Positions 41,217-63,958 of a stretch of DNA of 64,000 bases are shown piece after piece. The stretch spans positions 620,001-684,000 of the forward strand of contig NZ_JAUSVO010000001.1 of NCBI RefSeq assembly GCF_030814715.1, given 5' to 3'. The translations under genes and the position numbers were made by a program. This stretch comes from Kaistia dalseonensis. Lineage in GTDB: Bacteria; Pseudomonadota; Alphaproteobacteria; Rhizobiales; Kaistiaceae. Below the pieces are notes generated by a model. The model had not been told where the DNA came from. It ran no database searches and saw nothing but the letters and a program-made list of their open reading frames with translations. Positions within the stretch are counted from its first letter, which is position 1. Each line of letters opens with the position of its first letter.

Positions 41217-42068
41217 TCAGGCCGGGCCGGTCTCGACCGGCGTATCCGCCTTGCTGCCCCATTCGGCCCAGGAGCCGTCATAGAGGCTGACCTTGTCCGC
41301 GCCGATCGTCGTCAGGGCCAGCGACAGGATCGCCGCCGAAACGCCCGATCCGCAGCTCGTAACAATCGGCTGTGACGGATCGATGTCGGCCGCGGCGAAG
41401 ACGGACTTGATGTCGTCCGCACTTTTCAGGCGGCCATTGGCGACGACCTCGCCGAACGGCACGCTGTGGCTACCCGGCATGTGGCCGGCGCGGAGGCCTG
41501 GGCGCGGCTCGGGCGCCTCGCCGCGGAAGCGGTCGGCGGGACGGGCGTCGACGATCTGGGCCGAATGGTCGGCAATGACAGACTTGACGTCGTCGATGGT
41601 GCGGACGGCATCGCTGTCGAGCGTGGCGTGGAACGTCTTCGCGGTCGCCGAGGGCAGGCCGGATTCGAGCGGACGTCCCTCCGTTTTCCAAAGCGGGAAG
41701 CCGCCGTCGAGAATGCGAACATCCTTCGCGCCGAACACGCGGAACGTCCACCAGACGCGCGCGGCGGAGAACAGGCCCGCACCGTCATAGACCACGATGG
41801 TCTGCTTGTCCGAAATCCCCGCCGCGCCAACTGTCGCGGCGAACAATTCGGCCGAGGGCAGCATGTGCGGCAGGCCGGATGTCGTGTCGGCGACCTTGTC
41901 GATATCGAAGAAGACCGCGCCCGGAATATGCGCGGCGGCATATTCGGTTGCGGCGTTTCGCCCCGCGGTCGGCAGGTACCAGGAGCCATCGACGATTGCG
42001 ATACTGGGGTCTCCCAAATGGGCGGCGAGCCATTCGGTCGAGACGAAGATATCGGCGCGTTCGGTCAT
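41217..42068 (-). CDS. sseA: 3-mercaptopyruvate sulfurtransferase
   Basis: 283 residues made of two rhodanese domains. The N-terminal domain (about 5-145) has VSTEWLAAHLGDPSIAIVDGSWYLP and VFFDIDKVADTTSGLPHMLP. The C-terminal domain (about 160-280) carries the catalytic Cys in TSCGSGVSAAILSLAL; the CGSG loop, rather than a CRxGx[RT] loop, is typical of mercaptopyruvate sulfurtransferases. It transfers sulfur to thiol acceptors or cyanide in the cytosol. It lies upstream of the MOSC gene (15 bases) and downstream of the alanyl-tRNA editing and cysteine synthase genes, all on one strand. Confidence 0.93.
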   Translation of the reverse strand: MTERADIFVSTEWLAAHLGDPSIAIVDGSWYLPTAGRNAATEYAAAHIPGAVFFDIDKVADTTSGLPHMLPSAELFAATVGAAGISDKQTIVVYDGAGLFSAARVWWTFRVFGAKDVRILDGGFPLWKTEGRPLESGLPSATAKTFHATLDSDAVRTIDDVKSVIADHSAQIVDARPADRFRGEAPEPRPGLRAGHMPGSHSVPFGEVVANGRLKSADDIKSVFAAADIDPSQPIVTSCGSGVSAAILSLALTTIGADKVSLYDGSWAEWGSKADTPVETGPA

Positions 42069-54518: not shown

Positions 54519-55469
54519 TCAGCCTGGCGTCCGCAGGGCGAGGAGGCGCCGCGCATTGGCGCCCGCGATGAGCGCCTGCGCCTCGGCGTCGAGGCTGGCT
54601 TCCGTGAGGCTCGCGGTCAGGGTCGGCCGCGAAAGCGCCGGGAGGATCGGCCAGTCCGTTCCCGCCAGCACGCGCTCGGCGCCGAAGAAGCCGGTGAGCG
54701 TGCGGATGATCGCCGGATCGTGCCCCATCGTGTCGAAATAGATGTTCGGGCGGAGGCCGGCGGCGCGGGCCTCGCGGCCATATTTGCCGCCGCGCGAGGC
54801 TTGCACGATCGCGCCGAGGCCGAGGGTGGCGAAGACCAGGTGCAGGTCCGGCAGTTCGTCGAGCAGGCCCGACTGCAGCAGCGAGAGAAAGGCGACGCCG
54901 TTCATCAGCCCGCGTCCCAGCGAATTGCCGAGCGCGCCGGCGCCGGCGATGAGGCTTTCCCGCCCCGGCGTGTTGTTGGGATGAACGAAGACCGGCACCT
55001 TGAGGCGCGCGGCGACTTCCAGCGTCGGGCGCGCGCTCGCATCGCCCGGAAAGACGCCATGCCGGCTCGAATCGATCACGATGCCGGAAAGCCCGAGCTC
55101 GCCGACCGCCCGCTCGGCCTCGCGCGCCCCGGCCTCGCCCGAGAACACGTCGACCACGGCGAGCGCGGCGAGGTGATCGGGATGGGCCTGCACGAGGCCA
55201 GCCAGATAGTCGTTCGTCCGCGACACCTCCGCGGCGTCGACCGGCGCTTCCGTGCCGAACCGGCTCTCGATCGTCGCGCTGATCACGCTGAGCGAGACGC
55301 CGCCGGCGAGCGCCTCATCGATCAAGGCCGAGGGGCTGGTGATGCGGCGGCGGATATCGTCCGAAAAACCGAAGCCGGGCTGGTGGCCGCTCCCGTCGGC
55401 GGCGGCCCAGTGGGCGGGCCATAGATGGGTGTGAAAATCGACGATGTCGAGCCAATCGGTGGAGGTCAT
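54519..55469 (-). CDS. Amidohydrolase-2 family metal-dependent hydrolase
   Basis: 316 residues of the amidohydrolase superfamily TIM barrel. Metal-site landmarks: IVDFHTHLWPAHW (HxH), PVFVHPNNTPGRESLI (His), IYFDTMGHDPAII (His) and VLAGTDWPILPAL (Asp). This group covers decarboxylases and hydrolases of small carboxylates (the ACMSD/TIM-barrel 'Amidohydro_2' family). It is last in the minus-strand locus and overlaps the upstream flavoprotein gene by 4 bases, so the two enzymes probably act on one substrate, with the hydrolase finishing what the monooxygenase begins. The substrate is unknown. Confidence 0.84.
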   Translation of the reverse strand: MTSTDWLDIVDFHTHLWPAHWAAADGSGHQPGFGFSDDIRRRITSPSALIDEALAGGVSLSVISATIESRFGTEAPVDAAEVSRTNDYLAGLVQAHPDHLAALAVVDVFSGEAGAREAERAVGELGLSGIVIDSSRHGVFPGDASARPTLEVAARLKVPVFVHPNNTPGRESLIAGAGALGNSLGRGLMNGVAFLSLLQSGLLDELPDLHLVFATLGLGAIVQASRGGKYGREARAAGLRPNIYFDTMGHDPAIIRTLTGFFGAERVLAGTDWPILPALSRPTLTASLTEASLDAEAQALIAGANARRLLALRTPG

Positions 55470-56716
55470 GCGGGCACCTTCTCGGCAGTCGTCTCGCTCG
55501 TACCGATGCGATATTGGGCGGGTGGCGGGGTTCCGTTGACGGCGAAATCGCCCACGACGCGGTCGCGATAGATGCGCGGATTGTGCGAGGAGATCGTGCG
55601 CGCGTTGCGCCAGTAGCGGTCGAGGCCGAGGCCGCGCTTGGCAGCCGATGCGCCGAGCGCGTCGAAGAGCAGCGTCGTCGCGTCGAGGATCAGATTGGTC
55701 ACGACATTGACCGACTGGTTGATCTCGAGTTCCGCAATCGCATTGGCGGCCGCGAGCCTCTCGGGATTGCTGTCGAGGCGTGCCTCATAGGCGCGCTGGG
55801 TCGCCTCCGCCGCCCTGAGGACGATCGACCCCGATGAATAGGCGGCGCCGCGCACGCGACCCACGACCTGCAGGATCTGCGGGTCTTCGCTGACGCGGGG
55901 CGCATTGCCATGGCTATAGATGCGGGTGCGCTCGCGCACGAGCCGCGCGACGTCATTGGCGGCGGCGCGGCCGATGCCGGCGAGCGTCGCCAGATGGACG
56001 AGCTGGAAGAAGGCCGACGAATAAGCGAACCGTCCGCCGGGCGGATTGACGAGTTCCGGGTCGATCACGACGTCGGAGAAGCGCACCGTGCCGCTCGCCG
56101 TCAGCGCCTGGCCGAAGCCGTCCCAATCATCGATGACGTCGACGCCGGGTGCCTGTCGCGGTACGAGCGCGCCGACGGGCTGGCCGTTCTCGTCGGTTCC
56201 GCCGAGATTGATCCAGTCGGCGAAGAGCGAGCCGGTCGTGTAATATTTCGAGCCGTTGAGCAGCCAGTGATCGCCATGGCGCGTCAGCCGGGTCGAGAAC
56301 GCGCCGATGCGGGCCTCGCCCACCTCGGAGAAGCCGCTTCCGATCGTCTCGCGATTGGCGATGCGCCCGAGCCAGACGGCGCGCCATTCGAGCGCGCTCG
56401 AATTCAGCACATCCTCGGTGAAGCCGAAATGCGAGCGCAGCGCATTGGTGACGTTGGAATCGGCCTCCGATAATTCGATCAGCAGGTTGAAGAGTTCCGG
56501 CAGGCTGGCGCCGAAGCCGCCTTGCTCCGGCGCGAGGCGCAAGGTGGTGAAGCCGGCATCCCGTAGCCAGCCGATCTCCTCATGGGGCAGGCCGCGCGCA
56601 AGGTCGCGCTCGACCGCTGTGGCGCGGATGCGGGCGAAGACGGGGCGGAATTCCTGCGCGAGCGCTTCATAGCGCTCCGATGGTCCCGCGCCCCATGCCA
56701 AATCGATCTGGGTCAT
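55466..56716 (-). CDS. Acyl-CoA-dehydrogenase-fold flavoprotein, DszC/SfnB-like (paralogue 1)
   Basis: 416 residues. The fold is that of acyl-CoA dehydrogenase, but the motifs point to the flavin-dependent monooxygenase branch: an N-terminal helical domain with LRDAGFTTLRLAPEQGGFGA, SLPELFNLLIELSEADSNVT, NALRSHFGFTEDVLNS, WLLNGSKYYTTGSLFADWIN, IDDWDGFGQALTASGTVRFS and a C-terminus with RYWRNARTISSHNPRIYRDR, VVGDFAVNGT. The RNARTxxxHxP motif is shared with DszC. Members use reduced FMN and oxygen, or act in sulfur acquisition (SfnB). A paralogue of 415 residues lies 4 kb upstream in the same locus. No flavin reductase gene is visible in the window. Confidence 0.85.
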   Translation of the reverse strand: MTQIDLAWGAGPSERYEALAQEFRPVFARIRATAVERDLARGLPHEEIGWLRDAGFTTLRLAPEQGGFGASLPELFNLLIELSEADSNVTNALRSHFGFTEDVLNSSALEWRAVWLGRIANRETIGSGFSEVGEARIGAFSTRLTRHGDHWLLNGSKYYTTGSLFADWINLGGTDENGQPVGALVPRQAPGVDVIDDWDGFGQALTASGTVRFSDVVIDPELVNPPGGRFAYSSAFFQLVHLATLAGIGRAAANDVARLVRERTRIYSHGNAPRVSEDPQILQVVGRVRGAAYSSGSIVLRAAEATQRAYEARLDSNPERLAAANAIAELEINQSVNVVTNLILDATTLLFDALGASAAKRGLGLDRYWRNARTISSHNPRIYRDRVVGDFAVNGTPPPAQYRIGTSETTAEKVPA

Positions 56717-56792: not shown

Positions 56793-58667
56793 CTACGCGA
56801 CCGCGGCCAGCTTGCTGCCGGCGAAGTCGTGCTTGAGGATTGCGATCTCGAAGCCGCGCCGCTTCAGCCAATGGGCCGTCGTGGCGGCCCGCGTTCCCGT
56901 CGGCTCGTCGATGAGCACGACGCGCGCGCCGCGCACCGCGATGGTCCGATAGGAAACGCCGAGCAATTGCCCACCCTCCGACGAGATCGAACCGGGCAGA
57001 TGGCTGGCCTCGAATTCCTCGGGCGTGCGCACGTCGAGCCAATAGGTCGTCCGGCCCTCATCATTCCGCCAGGCGCGCGCCGTCGCCTCGTCGATCTCGG
57101 GGATCGCATCCTCAGCCGCGATGCGGGCAGTGAAGCTCTCGGCTGCGCGGCGCGCCGCCTCCGATACCGGCCCGTAGAGGCGGGTTGCGCCCGTCTCGAG
57201 CGCGAGGCCGGCCTTGCGCCAGCCAGCGGTGCCGTCGTCGAGATAGGCGACCTTGTTCGGAACGCCGCCATCGATCAGCGTCTGCGCGCCGATGATCGCG
57301 CGCGGCAGTCCGGCGCAGGAAACGAGCACCTGCGTCTCCGGCGAGGGCACGAGGTCGGTGAAGCGCAGCAGCAGCTCGGCGCCGGGCACGCTGATCGCGC
57401 CGGGCACATGGTCGCGCGTGAACTCCTCGACCGTGCGCGTATCGAGCACGACCACATCCTTGCCGGCATCGCGCCACTGCTTCAGCTCCGCCGCGCTTAC
57501 GACCGGCGTGCCGCGCTCGTCGCGGATCGCGAGCGAGAAGACGACGCCGGGCGTATCGAAGGTCGGCAGGCCCTCGCCAAGCGCCAGCCAGGCCGGAACG
57601 CCGCCAGCAAGCGCCACGACATGGCTGCGACCGGCGCGTGCGAGCTTTTCCGCGATTTCGACGGCGATGCCGCTGCGATCGTCCACCAAAACGGTCCGAA
57701 CCGCATGGCGCGGAATATGTCGCCCGATCTCGGCCTCGACACGGTCCGCCGGCAGGTTGGTCGCATAAAGCGGCTCGCCCTTGCCGAAGGCGGCAGCATC
57801 GCGCAGGTCGAGCACGGCGAGTTCCTCGCCATCCTCGATCCAGGACCGGAAAGTCTGTGCGTCAATGGTCGGAGCACTCATGGGAGACCTATCCTTGTTG
57901 CGGGTCGGCGCATCGGCCGAGGGGGAGGGCGGAGCGGAAACGGCGGGCACGTCGACGCCGAGCCAGCTGAGCAATTGCCGTCGCAGGCGGTCGAGCGCCG
58001 GATCGCCGAGCGCGCGTGGGCGCGGCCAGTCGAGGATCGCCTCATGGGCGATCGACCCGTCGCGCATGACGAGGATGCGGTCGGCGAGAAGCAGCGCTTC
58101 TTCCACGTCATGGGTCACCAGCAGCACCGCCTGGCGGTGGCGCTGCCAGAGATCGGCCACCAGCGCCTGAGCCTTCAATCGCGTCAGTGCGTCGAGCGAG
58201 CCGAAGGGCTCGTCGAGCAGCAGCAGGTCGGGATTGCGGACCAGCGCCCGGGCGAGCGAAGCGCGCTGCGCCTCGCCGCCGGAAAGGTCCTTCGGCCATG
58301 CGTCACCGCGCGCGCCAAGGCCGACCTCGGCCAGCGCCGCATCGGCGCGTGCGCGGTCGCGCCTGCCGGGGAGGCCGACCACGACGTTGGCCCAGACGCG
58401 TTTCCACGGGAAAAGCCTCGGCGCCTGGAACGCGACGCCGCGCCGTGGCGAGACGAAGACATCGCCTTTAATGTCATGATCGAGATCGGCGAGGATGCGC
58501 AGCAGCGTGCTCTTGCCGCAGCCGCTGGCGCCGAGCAGGGCCACGAACTCGCCGCGGCGAATGTCGAGGTCGAGCCCCTTGATGACGGTGCGCTCGTCGA
58601 AGCGGCGGACCAGTCCACGGACGCGGATGGCGAGATCGTGCGGTGCAGCGGGCTGGCTCATGGTCAC
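56793..58667 (-). CDS. ABC transporter ATPase fused to three rhodanese domains
   Basis: 624 residues. Residues 1-262 are an SsuB/TauB-type ABC ATPase: Walker A GASGCGKST (46-54), Q-loop VAFQAPRLFPW, signature LSGGEAQR (128-135), Walker B LLLLDEP (148-154), switch His186. Residues 263-624 are three rhodanese domains, about 263-375, 388-492 and 522-613. Only the middle one has a catalytic cysteine (Cys451 in VSCAGLPRA); the equivalent loops of the others read DDRSG and DEPTG. The junction encodes PSADAPTRNKDRSPMSAPTI; the ATG of MSAP (57881) has AAGGATAGG just upstream, so a separate 362-residue rhodanese protein could also be made. The gene overlaps the permease gene by 4 bases. It suggests coupling of sulfur-compound import with sulfane transfer. 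Confidence 0.88.
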   Translation of the reverse strand: MTMSQPAAPHDLAIRVRGLVRRFDERTVIKGLDLDIRRGEFVALLGASGCGKSTLLRILADLDHDIKGDVFVSPRRGVAFQAPRLFPWKRVWANVVVGLPGRRDRARADAALAEVGLGARGDAWPKDLSGGEAQRASLARALVRNPDLLLLDEPFGSLDALTRLKAQALVADLWQRHRQAVLLVTHDVEEALLLADRILVMRDGSIAHEAILDWPRPRALGDPALDRLRRQLLSWLGVDVPAVSAPPSPSADAPTRNKDRSPMSAPTIDAQTFRSWIEDGEELAVLDLRDAAAFGKGEPLYATNLPADRVEAEIGRHIPRHAVRTVLVDDRSGIAVEIAEKLARAGRSHVVALAGGVPAWLALGEGLPTFDTPGVVFSLAIRDERGTPVVSAAELKQWRDAGKDVVVLDTRTVEEFTRDHVPGAISVPGAELLLRFTDLVPSPETQVLVSCAGLPRAIIGAQTLIDGGVPNKVAYLDDGTAGWRKAGLALETGATRLYGPVSEAARRAAESFTARIAAEDAIPEIDEATARAWRNDEGRTTYWLDVRTPEEFEASHLPGSISSEGGQLLGVSYRTIAVRGARVVLIDEPTGTRAATTAHWLKRRGFEIAILKHDFAGSKLAAVA

Positions 58668-59554
58668 GCTCCAGCGAAGTTCTGCCGCCAGCGCAGCAAT
58701 CCGCGCTCGAGTCCGCGCACGATCAGATCGGCGCTGAGCCCGAGGATCGCGTAGATCACAAGGCAGACGAGGATGATGTCGACGCGGTAGACTTCACGGG
58801 CATGGGTGATCAGATAGCCGAGCCCGCCTTGCGCGTTCACAGTCTCGGCGAAGACCAGCGCGAGCCATGCCGAGCCGAGCGAATAGCGCAGACCGACCAG
58901 GAGATTGGGGAGGGCGCCCGGCAGGATCACCTGGAACACCAGCGCGGCGCGCCCCAGTCCCAGCGTATGGGCCGCTTCCACCAGCGTCCGATCGACATTG
59001 CGGATGCCGGCGAAGGTGTTGACGTAAAGCGGGAAGGTCACGGCAAAGGCGACGAGCGTCACCTTCGGCGCCTCGTCAATGCCGAGCCAGATGATCAGGA
59101 GCGGGATCAGGCCGGCCCAGGGCAGGGTGCGCGCCATCTGCATCGGCGCGTCGACGAGATCCTCGCCGAGGCGGAAAAGGCCCGAGAGGACCGCAAGGCC
59201 GATGCCGGTGAAAGCGCCGATGGCGAACCCGGACAAGACCCGCTGCAGCGACAGCGTCATCGCCTCGGAAAGCTCGCCGCTGTCGAACAGTTCGAGCAGC
59301 GTCTGACCCATGGTGCGGGGCGAGGGAAACAGATCCTCCGAAATCCAGCCGAGGCTCGTGGCGAACCACCAGAGCGCAAGCAGCGCGACCGCGCCGGTCA
59401 TCCGGCTCACGAACCGTGGCACGAGCGGCCGCCGGGCCTGATGCGCCGGTGCAATGCGCACCAGCCCAGCCGGCGCGGCCTCGTCCCGTCGGGCTTTCGT
59501 ATCCAGCGCCGTCCTGGGGAAGGACGGCGCGCCGGTTGCGGTCGTGTCGGCCAT
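58664..59554 (-). CDS. ABC transporter permease, sulfonate/nitrate/taurine type (SsuC-like)
   Basis: 296 residues, six membrane helices after a polar N-terminus of about 45 residues. The EAA loop is EAAHTLGLGRAALVFQVILP, then GALPNLLVGLRYSLGSAWLA and LVFAETVNAQGGLGYLI, diagnostic of the SsuC/TauC family. It forms the membrane channel for the neighbouring binding protein and the ATPase-rhodanese fusion. Start and stop overlap both neighbours (1 base with the binding-protein stop at 59554, 4 bases with the ATPase start), showing tight translational coupling. Confidence 0.92.
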   Translation of the reverse strand: MADTTATGAPSFPRTALDTKARRDEAAPAGLVRIAPAHQARRPLVPRFVSRMTGAVALLALWWFATSLGWISEDLFPSPRTMGQTLLELFDSGELSEAMTLSLQRVLSGFAIGAFTGIGLAVLSGLFRLGEDLVDAPMQMARTLPWAGLIPLLIIWLGIDEAPKVTLVAFAVTFPLYVNTFAGIRNVDRTLVEAAHTLGLGRAALVFQVILPGALPNLLVGLRYSLGSAWLALVFAETVNAQGGLGYLITHAREVYRVDIILVCLVIYAILGLSADLIVRGLERGLLRWRQNFAGA

Positions 59555-60573
59555 TACTGCGAGGCCGCCAGCTTCTTGTTTTCATCGGTGATCACATCGC
59601 CGAAATCCTTGGCGACGTAATCCTTGACGTCATAGGCGGTCTTGAACGACCCGGTCTTGTGGAAGTAGTCGACTTCCTGCTGCCAGCCGGCGATCACGTC
59701 GGCATCGGTCGCGGGGACATATTCGACCCGCGAGCGGCTCGTCTGCAGCGCGGCTGCATCGGGCGAGATCTGCGAAAGCTTGGCGACCTGCGCCGACCAT
59801 TCGTCGGGATGGGCATTGACCCAGGCCTGGGCGCGGATGATGCGCCGGGTCAGGTCCTGCAGCGCGGCCTTGCGCGCCGGGTCGTCGAGATCGGCCGTCG
59901 GCGTATAGAGCACACCCGCCGTGTCTATGACCTTGCTCAGCGATTTCAGGATGCGGGCGCCATGCTGCTGCTGGGCGATCGCCGTGTTCGGATCCCAGAC
60001 CACGAAGGCATCGACCTGGCCGTTGACCAGCGCCGAGAGGCCATCGGTGGTGTTCAGACGCAGGATCAGCTTCTCGTCGAAGGGGACGTTCGCCTGTTCG
60101 AGCGCCTTGGCAAACTGGTAGTGCTGCTTGGTGAAATAGGGCAGGGCAACCTTGTGGCCCTTCAATTCCTCGACCGTCTGGAGCGGGGAATCGCCGCGCA
60201 CCAGGATCGCGCTGCCGCTCTCCTTGCGTTCCCAGGTTCCGGCGAGGATGGTGATCTTCAATCCATTGGCGATGCCGAACAGCACGCCCGTATCGCCGCC
60301 GGCGGCGATGTCGACATGGCCGGCCCGGAGCGCCTCGACCAAAGGTGGCGTCGAGTCGAAGTCCGCCCACTTGATCGTGTAGGGGACGTTGTCGGCTTCG
60401 CCCGATGCGATCAATTGGCGATGCAGGCCGGTCTTGTTCGGGGTCCCGACCGTGATGGTCAGTTTCGAGAGGTCCGGCGCGTCATCGGCGAGCGCCGCCG
60501 TGGCGAGCATCGCGGTCGCCGCCAGCCCGAGGCCGAGGCGCTTCGCAATCTGTCCAAATCGTCCGTGTGTCAT
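59554..60573 (-). CDS. ABC transporter substrate-binding protein, sulfonate type (SsuA-like)
   Basis: 339 residues from ATG 60573 (MTHGRFGQIAKRLGLGLAAT); the frame stays open further upstream but this only shadows the next gene. Signal peptide with cleavage after ALA in TAALADDAPD. The mature part has the NMT1/SsuA fold: TITVGTPNKTGLHRQLIASG, YTIKWADFDSTPPLVEALRA, GHVDIAAGGDTGVLFGIANG, and FVVWDPNTAIAQQQHGARIL. It collects an organic sulfonate or related sulfur compound in the periplasm; the ligand is uncertain. It overlaps the permease gene by one base. Confidence 0.91.
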   Translation of the reverse strand: MTHGRFGQIAKRLGLGLAATAMLATAALADDAPDLSKLTITVGTPNKTGLHRQLIASGEADNVPYTIKWADFDSTPPLVEALRAGHVDIAAGGDTGVLFGIANGLKITILAGTWERKESGSAILVRGDSPLQTVEELKGHKVALPYFTKQHYQFAKALEQANVPFDEKLILRLNTTDGLSALVNGQVDAFVVWDPNTAIAQQQHGARILKSLSKVIDTAGVLYTPTADLDDPARKAALQDLTRRIIRAQAWVNAHPDEWSAQVAKLSQISPDAAALQTSRSRVEYVPATDADVIAGWQQEVDYFHKTGSFKTAYDVKDYVAKDFGDVITDENKKLAASQ

Positions 60574-60641: not shown

Positions 60642-61889
60642 TCAGAAGACGCGGCCTTCCTTCAGATGATCGGTGGTGCCGTTCAGGGTGAAATCGCCGA
60701 CCACGCGCGCCTTGTGCAGCAGCGGGTTGTGGTTGAGCAGCGTGCGGACATTGCGCCAGTGGCGATCGAAATTGAGCTTGCGCGAGGTCGCCGATCCGCC
60801 GCCGACATCGAACATCGTCTCGGCCGTCCTGAGCGCGAGCTTGGCGATCACGATCTGGGTCTTCGCGGTGGCGAGCGCGCCCTGCAGGATGTTCGCATCG
60901 GCATCGGCTTCGGACGCGTCGGCAAGAAGCGCCGAGGCCGAGCGATCGAGCGCTGCGGCATTGGCGGCGATCAGGCCGTCGATCGCGAAGGAATTGGCCG
61001 AAAGCTCGCCGATGATCTGCTGCACGAACGGATCGTCGATCGCCCGCTGGACATGGCTGTGCAGGGCGGCGCGTGCCTGCTTCTGCACATAGGCCGTCGC
61101 ATCGGAGACGACATTGCGGATGATGCCGCCGGCGCAGGCGACGAGGTGCAGCTGGCGCAGCGCCGATGTGTGGCGGCCGACCAGATTGACCAGCTCGCGC
61201 GGCGCGATCTCGTGGGCGAACACCTCGACGTCGATCAGGTCGACGCCGCCGCTCGCGGTCAGCCGCTGGCCCATGCCGTCCCAATCGTCGAGGATATGGA
61301 TGCCGGGCCGGTCGAGCGGCAGCAGCGCGGTCACGAAGACGCCGTCCTCGTCCAGCGCGCCGAAGCTCGCATAGTCGGAGAAGGCGGTGCCGGTCGCGTA
61401 ATATTTCTTGCCGTTCAGGCGATAGCTGTCGCCCTGCCGTTTCAGCGTGGTGGTCACCTGTCCGGGCTGCGCCGTGCCGAGTTCGGTGAAGGCGCCGCCG
61501 AAGATCGCGCCATCGAGGACGCGGGAAAGCTGGAGATCATTGCCGGGCGAGCGCGCCGAGAGGATCAGTGCCTCGGTGAAGTTGAAATGCGAGCGCAGCG
61601 CATGGGCGACGTTGGAATCCGCCGCCGCCAGCGTCGCGATGATCTCGATCAGGTCGCTGATCGAGCCGCCCGGTCCGCCGCGCTCGACGGGAACGCGGAT
61701 GGCGCCGAGGCCGGACTTGCGGAACAGCGCGAAGGCCTCGAACGGGAGCGCGCGATCGATGTCGCGCTCCGAAGCGCCCTTGGCGATCTCAGCCGCAAGC
61801 GCGGGGAGCCGCGCCAGCAGCGTCGCGCGGTCCGGACGTGCGGTGGCGGATGGCCCGTCGGGGCGCAAGGCGGCGGTCTGGATATTCAT
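60642..61889 (-). CDS. Acyl-CoA-dehydrogenase-fold flavoprotein, DszC/SfnB-like (paralogue 2)
   Basis: 415 residues from ATG 61889 (MNIQTAALRPDG). Same architecture as the protein at 55466-56716: FALFRKSGLGAIRVPVERGG, PGGSISDLIEIIATLAAADS, NVAHALRSHFNFTEALILSA, YRLNGKKYYATGTAFSDYAS, ILDDWDGMGQRLTASGGVDL and a C-terminus with RHWRNVRTLLNHNPLLHKAR, VVGDFTLNGT. The motifs fit flavin monooxygenases of sulfur acquisition rather than true acyl-CoA dehydrogenases; no catalytic base Glu in the usual place is obvious. It lies between the two binding-protein genes of the locus. Two diverged copies in one operon suggest two substrates or two sequential steps. Confidence 0.85.
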   Translation of the reverse strand: MNIQTAALRPDGPSATARPDRATLLARLPALAAEIAKGASERDIDRALPFEAFALFRKSGLGAIRVPVERGGPGGSISDLIEIIATLAAADSNVAHALRSHFNFTEALILSARSPGNDLQLSRVLDGAIFGGAFTELGTAQPGQVTTTLKRQGDSYRLNGKKYYATGTAFSDYASFGALDEDGVFVTALLPLDRPGIHILDDWDGMGQRLTASGGVDLIDVEVFAHEIAPRELVNLVGRHTSALRQLHLVACAGGIIRNVVSDATAYVQKQARAALHSHVQRAIDDPFVQQIIGELSANSFAIDGLIAANAAALDRSASALLADASEADADANILQGALATAKTQIVIAKLALRTAETMFDVGGGSATSRKLNFDRHWRNVRTLLNHNPLLHKARVVGDFTLNGTTDHLKEGRVF

Positions 61890-61966: not shown

Positions 61967-63592
61967 CTAGGCGCCGGCGTCGATATAGGTCGCGGCAAAG
62001 CTTCCCGACGGGCCATCGGCCACGGTGATGAAATCCTTGACGCGCTTGTTGTAGATGGTGAGCTGGCGGAAGCCGATCAGCGTGATGTCGGGCACGTCGT
62101 GCGCGATGATCACCTGCAACTGGTTGAAGAGCTCGACGCGCTTGGCCGGATCGTTCTCGATCGCCGCCTGCTCGAGGATCTTGTCGACTTCCGGGTTTGA
62201 ATAGCCCGAGCCGTTCGAGAACGGCACGCCCTTCTTGAAGTTCTTCGACCAATAGAGGCGCTGCACGCCGATCGTCGGATCGAATGTGTTGCCCATGCCG
62301 TTGGTGACAAAGTCGAAATCGCGATCCGTATAGACGCGCTTCAGCCAGCTGGGCACGTCCTGCCCGCGCAGCACGACCTTGATGCCGACCTTGCCGAGGC
62401 TGTCGCGGACATATTCGCCGATGCGCGTATAGGTGTCGCCATAGGGCATGACGTCATGCTCGACGGTGAAGCGGACGCCATCGGCGCCGCGCGGATAGCC
62501 GGCCTCGTCGAGCAGCCGCTCCGCTTCCTTCAGGTCGTAGCCATAGACGGGCGTGGCGGGATTGTAGAATTTCTTGAGCAGCGGGCTGATGGGCCCGGTC
62601 GCCGGGATGCCGTAGCCATAGAAGGCGATGTCGATGACCTTCTGCCGGTCGATCGCATGGGCGACTGCCTGGCGAACCTTCAGATCCTTGAAATATCTGC
62701 TGTCGAGGTTGAACTCGATCCGGTAGACCGTTGGCGAATAGTCCGCGCCGCGATCGTCGACGCCGATATTCGGCAGTTCCTTGATGCGCTCGATTTCCGA
62801 GAGCGAGACGGGCGTATCCGGCGCGAGATCGACCTCGCCGGCCTCGATCGCCGCAAGGCGGGCGCTCGCATCGGGAATGAACTTCACGACGATGCGGTCT
62901 AGATAGGGCCTCGGCGCGTCCCAATAGTCCGGATTGCGCTCGAGGATGATGTGGCTGCCGACCACCCATTCCTTGAACTTGAACGGGCCGGTGCCGATCG
63001 GCGCGCGGCCGTTCGGGTTGCCGGGAAAATCGGTGGTGCCCTCATAGACATGCTTTGGCACGATCGGAGATTCACTCGCCTGCAGCGCGCCGAGAAGATA
63101 GGGCGCGGGATGGGAGAGCTTGATCACCGCCGTATGGTCGTCCGGCGTCAGCACTTCGGTCACGCTGGAGAAAGTGGCGCGGCCGCGCGGATGCACCTGC
63201 CTCGGCGTCAGGATCGAGAAGGCGACGTCGGCCGAGGTGAAGGGCTGGTCGTCATGCCATTTCACGCCCTCGCGGAGCGTGAAGGTATATTCGAGCCCGT
63301 CCGGCGAGACCGACCAGGCGGTCGCGAGCTGCGGGATCGGCGCGAAGGTATCGAGATCATAGGCGAGCAGGCCTTCGGTGATCTTCGGGCTGACCCGCGT
63401 GGTCGGTCCGGCCGTATGCGCCAGCGTCAGCAGGGTCGGCGGCTCGGGCTGGACCAGGAAGTTCAGCGTGCCGCCGCTCACCGGCGCACTCTCCGCGCCA
63501 TAGGCCGGTGCGATCCGCGCGGCCGGGAGCGCGATCGTCGCCACGCCGAGCATCAGGGCCTTTGCGAAGTCGCGCCGGGACAGTGAGGACAT
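61967..63592 (-). CDS. Extracellular solute-binding protein family 5 (dipeptide/oligopeptide type), Tat-exported
   Basis: 541 residues from ATG 63592 (CGGAGAGATCG upstream); the frame to 63694 is an upstream extension. The N-terminus MSSLSRRDFAKALMLGVATI is a twin-arginine signal, with cleavage near AYGAES. Family-5 landmarks follow: DGLEYTFTLREGVKWHDDQP, FKFKEWVVGSHIILERNPDY, WDAPRPYLDRIVVKFIPD and VRQAVAHAIDRQKVI. No family-5 permease or ATPase lies on this side, so its membrane partners are probably encoded by the plus-strand gene that begins at 63959 and beyond. It heads the minus-strand locus. A peptide or sulfur-containing conjugate such as a glutathione-like compound is a plausible ligand, by context only. 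Confidence 0.9.
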   Translation of the reverse strand: MSSLSRRDFAKALMLGVATIALPAARIAPAYGAESAPVSGGTLNFLVQPEPPTLLTLAHTAGPTTRVSPKITEGLLAYDLDTFAPIPQLATAWSVSPDGLEYTFTLREGVKWHDDQPFTSADVAFSILTPRQVHPRGRATFSSVTEVLTPDDHTAVIKLSHPAPYLLGALQASESPIVPKHVYEGTTDFPGNPNGRAPIGTGPFKFKEWVVGSHIILERNPDYWDAPRPYLDRIVVKFIPDASARLAAIEAGEVDLAPDTPVSLSEIERIKELPNIGVDDRGADYSPTVYRIEFNLDSRYFKDLKVRQAVAHAIDRQKVIDIAFYGYGIPATGPISPLLKKFYNPATPVYGYDLKEAERLLDEAGYPRGADGVRFTVEHDVMPYGDTYTRIGEYVRDSLGKVGIKVVLRGQDVPSWLKRVYTDRDFDFVTNGMGNTFDPTIGVQRLYWSKNFKKGVPFSNGSGYSNPEVDKILEQAAIENDPAKRVELFNQLQVIIAHDVPDITLIGFRQLTIYNKRVKDFITVADGPSGSFAATYIDAGA

Positions 63593-63958
63593 CGATCTCT
63601 CCGAAACAGGTGAGGCCGCCGAGCGCAGCCGATATGCTTCGTTTTCGAGCCGAGGGCAGGGTAAGTCGACTGAAAAAATATTGTCGTTGGCCATGCGAAT
63701 GCTTGCTGGCCGAGGTCATCCATTCTCCATTTCATTCTCCCGTGAGTATCGTTGACCCGAGATCGGCCTGGGCGGGCAAGAGTTGCGCGCGGCGGCCGCG
63801 ATCGGCGCCGCAAACGTCTTCGGCGACCGCTCCGGTGGCGTTCAACAGCGCCGTTTCTTCTGCCTATAAATCACCGGAAACCGCCCGTGACTGGCGCGAA
63901 GACCTCGCAGCCGGCATTGTCGCAACGGGCGGGCCGCACATGAATTCCGGAGAGCCGC
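63593..63958. other. Divergent control region of the organosulfur locus
   Basis: 366 bases between the family-5 binding-protein gene and the plus-strand gene that starts at 63959. A plausible plus-strand promoter is listed separately. An AT-rich patch (GAAAAAATATTGTCG, about 63671-63685) is the best candidate for the minus-strand promoter region. No hairpin, riboswitch or coding frame could be supported. Confidence 0.35.
63841..63870 (+). promoter_or_regulatory. Candidate promoter for the gene at 63959
   Basis: TTCAAC (63841-63846), 18-bp spacer, TATAAA (63865-63870), 88 bases ahead of the ATG. The -10 matches 5 of 6 consensus bases; the -35 is weak (3 of 6). Confidence 0.3.

Follow-up and report, generated by a model that had tools for sequence, protein, structure and literature searches.

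Does a gene of Kaistia dalseonensis in which an ABC transporter ATPase runs on into three rhodanese domains represent a conserved two-part protein, or the joining of two genes that stand apart in its relatives? The gene was noticed in a 64,000-nucleotide stretch of DNA (the window, to which all positions refer) during a reading made from the sequence alone, which described one uninterrupted gene of 624 codons at 56793-58667. Coordinates and length were right, and the strand, which had been left unstated, is minus: ORF reading gives a single open frame whose product begins with an SsuB-like ABC ATPase and continues with three rhodanese domains.

The fusion gene and its cluster

The genes of the cluster read on the same strand from the dipeptide-type binding protein through SfnB-like, ssuA, ssuC, the fusion gene and a second SfnB-like gene to the amidohydrolase. 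They are listed in this order, with the parts of the fusion gene below it.

61967 to 63694, minus strand: SBP_bac_5 (dipeptide-type) substrate-binding protein (Pfam)
60642 to 61889, minus strand: SfnB-like oxidoreductase, upstream copy (family matches)
59554 to 60573, minus strand: SsuA-family substrate-binding protein; TAATG overlap with ssuC
58664 to 59554, minus strand: SsuC-like permease, with a stop (TGA) that overlaps the fusion-gene GTG
56793 to 58667, minus strand: fusion gene, SsuB-like ABC ATPase and three rhodanese domains; 624 codons from the GTG, 622 with the ATG at 58661 as start
57948 to 58631, minus strand: ABC ATPase module, about residues 13-240, containing Walker A (GASGCGKST), signature (LSGGE) and Walker B (LLLLDEP) motifs
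57882 to 57938, minus strand: linker, residues 244-262, pLDDT below 50
57879 to 57896, minus strand: putative internal ribosome-binding site AAGGATAGG with the junction ATG, aligning with the start of the stand-alone rhodanese gene in relatives
57582 to 57860, minus strand: rhodanese domain 1, active loop without Cys (Pfam and alignment)
57213 to 57497, minus strand: rhodanese domain 2, loop CAGLPR with Cys (Pfam and alignment)
57315 to 57317, minus strand: codon of Cys451, a residue retained in all 98 distinct relatives
56823 to 57059, minus strand: rhodanese domain 3, active loop without Cys (Pfam and alignment)
55466 to 56716, minus strand: second SfnB-like oxidoreductase, 76 bases downstream of the fusion gene
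54519 to 55469, minus strand: amidohydrolase (Amidohydro_2); 4-base overlap with the downstream SfnB-like gene

The order of domains proposed in the sequence-only reading was borne out by Pfam: ABC_tran scores 99.5 bits at residues 30-155, against a cut-off of 25, and the C-terminal half holds three Rhodanese stretches, each of which exceeded the cut-off of 22.2 bits singly in a search of the own genome (27.5, 51.6 and 32 bits for domains 1, 2 and 3). If the GTG is the start of the fusion gene, it overlaps the TGA of the ssuC-like gene (GTGA). SD energy is -8.8 kcal/mol for the ATG at codon 3 (58661) versus -2.8 for the GTG; the annotated start of SsuB of Sinorhizobium sp. B11 lies two codons upstream of this ATG, at the position of our GTG. 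The protein would have 624 or 622 residues, the SD energy favouring the ATG and the Sinorhizobium annotation the GTG.

The genes are closely packed (TAATG between ssuA and ssuC, GTGA between ssuC and the fusion gene, 4 bases of overlap between the SfnB-like and amidohydrolase genes). The importer and fusion genes are flanked by two different SfnB-like genes (55466-56716 and 60642-61889, both minus), and an SfnB-like gene adjoins ssuB or the rhodanese gene in several relatives. The ATPase scored 226.5 bits against the SsuB family NF008420 of NCBIfam, below the curated cut-off of 395 although this was the best of 195 families matched; the permease was closest to SsuC (236.3, cut-off 347) and the binding protein to SsuA (149.9, cut-off 163.5). 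As all three fall under their cut-offs, the assignment of the ATPase stops at "SsuB-like", and sulfonate import is a putative function.

The SsuA of the cluster was not found in the 13 congeners (14 genomes of the genus including our own; E 1e-40 or better). A rhodanese match was present in three of 28 genomes of the family, our own included (E 1e-30), the other two being only 42% and 33% identical. With this distribution in genus and family, the cluster looks accessory. The window holds a second rhodanese gene at 41253-42041 (minus), whose open frame of 290 residues encodes two such domains (56.2 and 53.2 bits).

In close relatives, the neighbours of the rhodanese gene are flavin-dependent and SfnB-like oxidoreductases, binding proteins and importers, and in L054 an MFS protein. 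Because of the oxidoreductase, binding-protein and importer neighbours, the rhodanese probably belongs to organosulfur use. In a more distant locus of Pseudomonas (L067), a cysteine-dioxygenase-type gene precedes the rhodanese gene, an order shared by the 3mdo-tst unit of P. protegens (PMC12947264). In R. capsulatus, a rhodanese-domain gene, not necessarily of the present family, was strongly induced on isethionate together with sulfonate and taurine importer genes, yet growth of its mutant was scored '+' in a table (PMC11423573).

Separate genes in the relatives

The rhodanese gene has a start codon of its own, ATG or GTG, exactly at our junction Met in 15 of the 16 close loci (58-70% identity). 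In the remaining one (L049) the match starts at residue 6, so that the junction start is not readable. The relatives of ssuB terminate after the ATPase in all seven cases. Matches in plasmid records start at residues 259-263 of our protein, which is the junction (best 20 of 67), and none of the 67 records covers 80% of the fusion protein in one place. Stand-alone genes were found in annotated regions of Mesorhizobium, Rhizobium, Sinorhizobium and Agrobacterium. Among loci L041-L126, no ATPase match continued into the rhodanese, the nearest same-strand upstream ATPase match lying 726 bases off (L073). The flanks fetched with the 31 loci L010-L040, at most 1.5 kb long, contained no ATPase match. 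An alignment-based contig scan gave at least 204 relatives, of which the best 80 were kept; an earlier contig scan with the single protein as query found no relative. Two further sets of records were covered for 60 of 102 and for 60 of 107, and 30 loci were fetched for 53 matches.

Full-length searches were made in genome sets that are overlapping samples, with three candidates scored per genome. Among 396 genomes of the order, no second match extended across both halves, and the one genome that matched did so from residue 247 (E 1e-85). The 385 genomes of the class gave six matches (E 1e-80), our own and five starting at residues 241-267, and the 398 genomes of the phylum gave three (E 1e-80), our own and two starting at 268 and 274; in neither set did any other match span both halves. 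The 365 genomes of one related family, that of G094, gave seven matches (E 1e-80), of which three were rhodanese-only (from residues 250, 258 and 261), four ATPase-only and none spanning. A TAG interrupts the match from residue 250, which is preceded by sbp5 and not by ssuB.

A conserved fusion was therefore rejected, no second one having been found in the sampled order, class, phylum and family of G094. Whether the fusion is conserved had been left as a question by the sequence-only reading; among the genomes sampled it occurs in this genome only, and homologues in two genes, which that reading had named as evidence against its proposal, were found in every relative with a readable junction. 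Such homologues refute a conserved fusion, not the fusion in this genome. As the fusion is confined to one genome, conservation offers no argument for a joint function of the halves. The nearest rhodanese relative among the matches listed is only 70% identical, and the fusion is therefore undatable. Among the papers found by literature searches on rhodanese, ABC transporters, SsuB, gene fusion and sulfonate, no title or abstract opening named such a fusion.

Two loci with irregular matches were also seen. In Rhizobium lemnae (L106:5460-7103), a close rhodanese match stops near residue 166 and an SfnB match from residue 99 follows soon after, a possible deletion joining the rhodanese and SfnB genes and perhaps another fusion in this kind of cluster. 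On a plasmid of Rhizobium sp. RCAM05350 (L045:2230-9087), sbp5, sfnB, ssuA and the rhodanese gene were each matched in two pieces, which suggests decay of the cluster or indel errors in the record.

The junction and the origin of the fusion

An ATG at 57881 with a ribosome-binding site had been noted at the junction, and both are present, AAGGATAGG lying at 57896-57888. At -7.0 kcal/mol, this ATG surpasses in SD energy each of 15 further in-frame internal ATGs of the cluster. The starts of the stand-alone relatives range from -6.6 to -10.5 (n = 15). As 14 of these 15 are stronger than the junction ATG, and 7.7% of the window's 943 minus-strand ATG triplets equal or exceed it, internal initiation is not certain. 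Of the two products that had been envisaged for this gene, the free one of 362 residues is thus plausible, in that a usable start seems to be present, but its synthesis cannot be taken as given. Homology of the junction leader to the leaders of the relatives was considered and dropped: that of L048 is striking by eye, and its likeness, the best found, was reached by 0.65% of 918 control leaders, which is not significant after 15 comparisons.

An error of sequencing or assembly that masks a true stop close to the ssuB end, the two genes being separate and translationally coupled, is unlikely, although several observations would suit it. The relatives carry two genes, the fusion is known from one assembly, the linker contains a run of five C, the junction ATG shares bases with a TGA in frame +1 (ATGA, as is common for coupled genes) and a TAG in frame +2 lies inside the ribosome-binding site. 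The codon scores, trained on the eight genes of the cluster minus the linker and then compared with those same genes, point both ways. Over the 22 linker codons, frame 0 (-7.8) was the best of the three (-26.5 and -13.6 in the others), which speaks against an error, but it falls under the 5th percentile (2.1) of the known coding stretches of the cluster. When the linker was divided, with sums made by hand and a split chosen after the scores had been seen, the first nine codons favoured frame +2 (about +0.8) over frame 0 (about -7.8), which would suit an error. For the next ten, SADAPTRNKD, just behind the C run, frame 0 stood at about +7.8 and the other two frames at about -15 each. The final three codons, around the ribosome-binding site, came to -7.8. 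The genome, moreover, is rated 100% complete in 11 contigs. A frame change at the C run, whether as origin of the fusion or as artefact, is disfavoured on these mixed scores, which fit a tail of SsuB followed by a former leader that would now be translated. The fusion is probably real, lineage-specific and made of known parts.

The gene orders in the relatives suggest how the two parts may have met. In one order (L043, L045 and L052), ssuA-ssuC-ssuB-sfnB is accompanied by a divergent rhodanese gene; in another (L084, L135, L136 and L137), sbp5-rhodanese-sfnB run in one direction, with rhodanese-sbp5-sfnB as a variant (L048 and L050). The order in the window, ssuA-ssuC-ssuB-rhodanese-sfnB, looks as if the two had been joined at sfnB.

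The best reading of the locus, in which we have good though not high confidence, is that the rhodanese gene was brought immediately behind ssuB in an organosulfur-uptake operon of SsuA/SsuC/SsuB-like and SfnB-like genes and that, at a time that cannot be dated, the ssuB stop was lost as the last step, so that both genes would be read as one chain. Stop loss between adjacent genes had been proposed from the sequence, and the start at the junction Met in the 15 close loci fits it. The ATPase half would still pair with SsuC and power import, and the rhodanese half would still move sulfane sulfur via Cys451, the disordered linker merely tethering it to the cytoplasmic face of the transporter. The internal ATG would be used by part of the ribosomes, giving the free 362-residue sulfurtransferase that the relatives make. 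The joining would then be roughly neutral or mildly useful (fixed stoichiometry, co-location) and not a new mechanism.

The two halves and the closest known systems

In a structure model based on 26 sequences (mean pLDDT 88.1, pTM 0.59), the protein forms two folded modules, and linker residues 244-262 (pLDDT below 50) are predicted to be disordered. Of 124 alignment columns without variation among 15 close relatives, the rhodanese half retains 120. With three relatives for each half, NG86 dN/dS was about 0.22-0.28 for the rhodanese half and 0.12-0.15 for the ATPase half; these values are rough, as NG86 dS was 0.9-1.4, near saturation, and YN00 was usable for one of six pairs (dS 3.2). The conserved-column and dN/dS results exceed what chance would give for the halves of this gene, and from sequence and model both halves are probably still active. 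That the C-terminal half is a passenger without a role, merely carried along, would agree with the solitary occurrence of the fusion among the sampled genomes; the retained catalytic loop, conserved columns and low dN/dS make it very unlikely, with the reservation that column and dN/dS averages may reflect mostly the time before the fusion.

Cys451 sits in the loop of the middle domain, VSCAGLPRA. Among 98 distinct relatives, the Cys of domain 2 was retained in all, and at the aligned place, which we chose to treat as the catalytic one, a Cys was found in none for domain 1 and in one (L040) for domain 3. Cys residues elsewhere in or beside the loop occurred in 17 rows for domain 1 and seven for domain 3. 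The alignment has 99 rows, one gene being present twice (L012 and L046), and leaves out matches spanning 300 residues or fewer (L045, L106, L108 and weaker ones), our own loci L001 and L009, and loci L127-L141. The earlier observation that only the middle domain keeps a Cys therefore holds, but the Cys-less outer loops are a pattern of the whole family and not a peculiarity of this gene; decay of domains 1 and 3 in the fusion gene is rejected on this ground. As a rule in this multi-rhodanese family, Cys-less outer domains raise the question of what the outer domains do.

Residue 192 of the rhodanese part (loop residues 189-195, window 57297-57317) is L in all 15 close relatives (CAGLPR) and R in the other 84 rows of the alignment, mostly as CAGRTRS. 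The L tracks the close subfamily and may alter the substrate. In distant loci, including L066:6001-7530, the matches are about 1400-1500 bases long, which suggests four rhodanese domains; four Pfam rhodanese stretches were confirmed in L066 only.

The structural matches of the ATPase half, headed by NrtBCD and CmpBCD chains, bear on a role of the rhodanese half as a sensor or regulatory module of the importer. Two of these chains, 9u9z_C (660 residues) and 8wm7_C (658 residues), resemble the fusion protein in length, but as wholes they superpose badly (rmsd 23.1 and 25.8). Moreover, no fused relative was found, and hence no sign of long selection for a sensor; the linker is predicted to be disordered, and how the modules are placed is uncertain (pTM 0.59). 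Such a role is improbable, although by analogy it would have a precedent in NrtC, whose C-terminal module is described as regulatory (PMC6603209). A more specific form, which has still less in its favour, is an importer gated by sulfane sulfur: a dimer of the fusion protein would hold six rhodanese domains under the ATPases, the persulfide on Cys451 would report sulfur supply, plenty would brake import, and the free 362-residue sulfurtransferase would compete for persulfide and so tune the brake.

The sequence-only reading proposed uptake and sulfane-sulfur handling on one polypeptide; in a channelling version of this, sulfane sulfur from the imported compound would be handed on at the exit of the transporter. 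The cluster does combine a sulfonate-type importer with flavin-dependent or SfnB-like oxidoreductases. Ssu-type importers, however, deliver sulfonates, and their oxidised sulfur is not a substrate for rhodanese before cleavage of the C-S bond. Such channelling has, in our judgement, very little probability.

Two metabolically linked genes appear joined here; a start site persists at the seam, and relatives in which the genes are unfused allow comparison. Provided that the fused chain is produced and functional, it would show that a large enzymatic C-terminal module is tolerated by an importer ATPase related to SsuB and NrtD, and a possible link between sulfur transfer and uptake could readily be tested on it. 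A neutral fusion would be an ordinary event.

The best structural match of the model is PDB 1YT8, which we take to be PA2603, a thiosulfate sulfurtransferase of Pseudomonas aeruginosa. The three tandem rhodanese domains align with it (residues 15-350, E 8.4e-85), and among its domains 1-3 only domain 2 has the Cys. 1YT8, in contrast, is a stand-alone protein of 539 residues with a further rhodanese stretch at 383-495, a fourth domain that the fusion protein lacks, and its active loop is CAGRTRS versus CAGLPRA. A putative activity of the rhodanese half is that of a thiosulfate sulfurtransferase of the 1YT8 type. The neighbours differ as well: PA2603-type genes adjoin a thiol dioxygenase gene (PMC12947264), whereas the fusion gene lies among genes for a sulfonate-type importer and SfnB-like proteins.

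WP_199202309.1, from a plasmid of Mesorhizobium sp. 113-3-3, is 69.7% identical to the rhodanese half over all 362 residues and has the same start Met; unlike the fusion, it is encoded by a separate gene without ATPase that overlaps a gene for an LLM-class flavin-dependent oxidoreductase by 4 bases. The SsuB-like ATPase XAZ20069.1 of Sinorhizobium sp. B11 p1 (79% identity) lies beside ssuC, ssuA and an SfnB-like gene, as in our cluster, but it stops after the ATPase, and the rhodanese gene of its cluster is divergent. As in ATPases of the NrtC/CmpC type, a related ATPase carries an additional C-terminal module. In NrtC and CmpC this domain is a relative of a substrate-binding protein, whereas in the fusion, found in one genome, it is a rhodanese.
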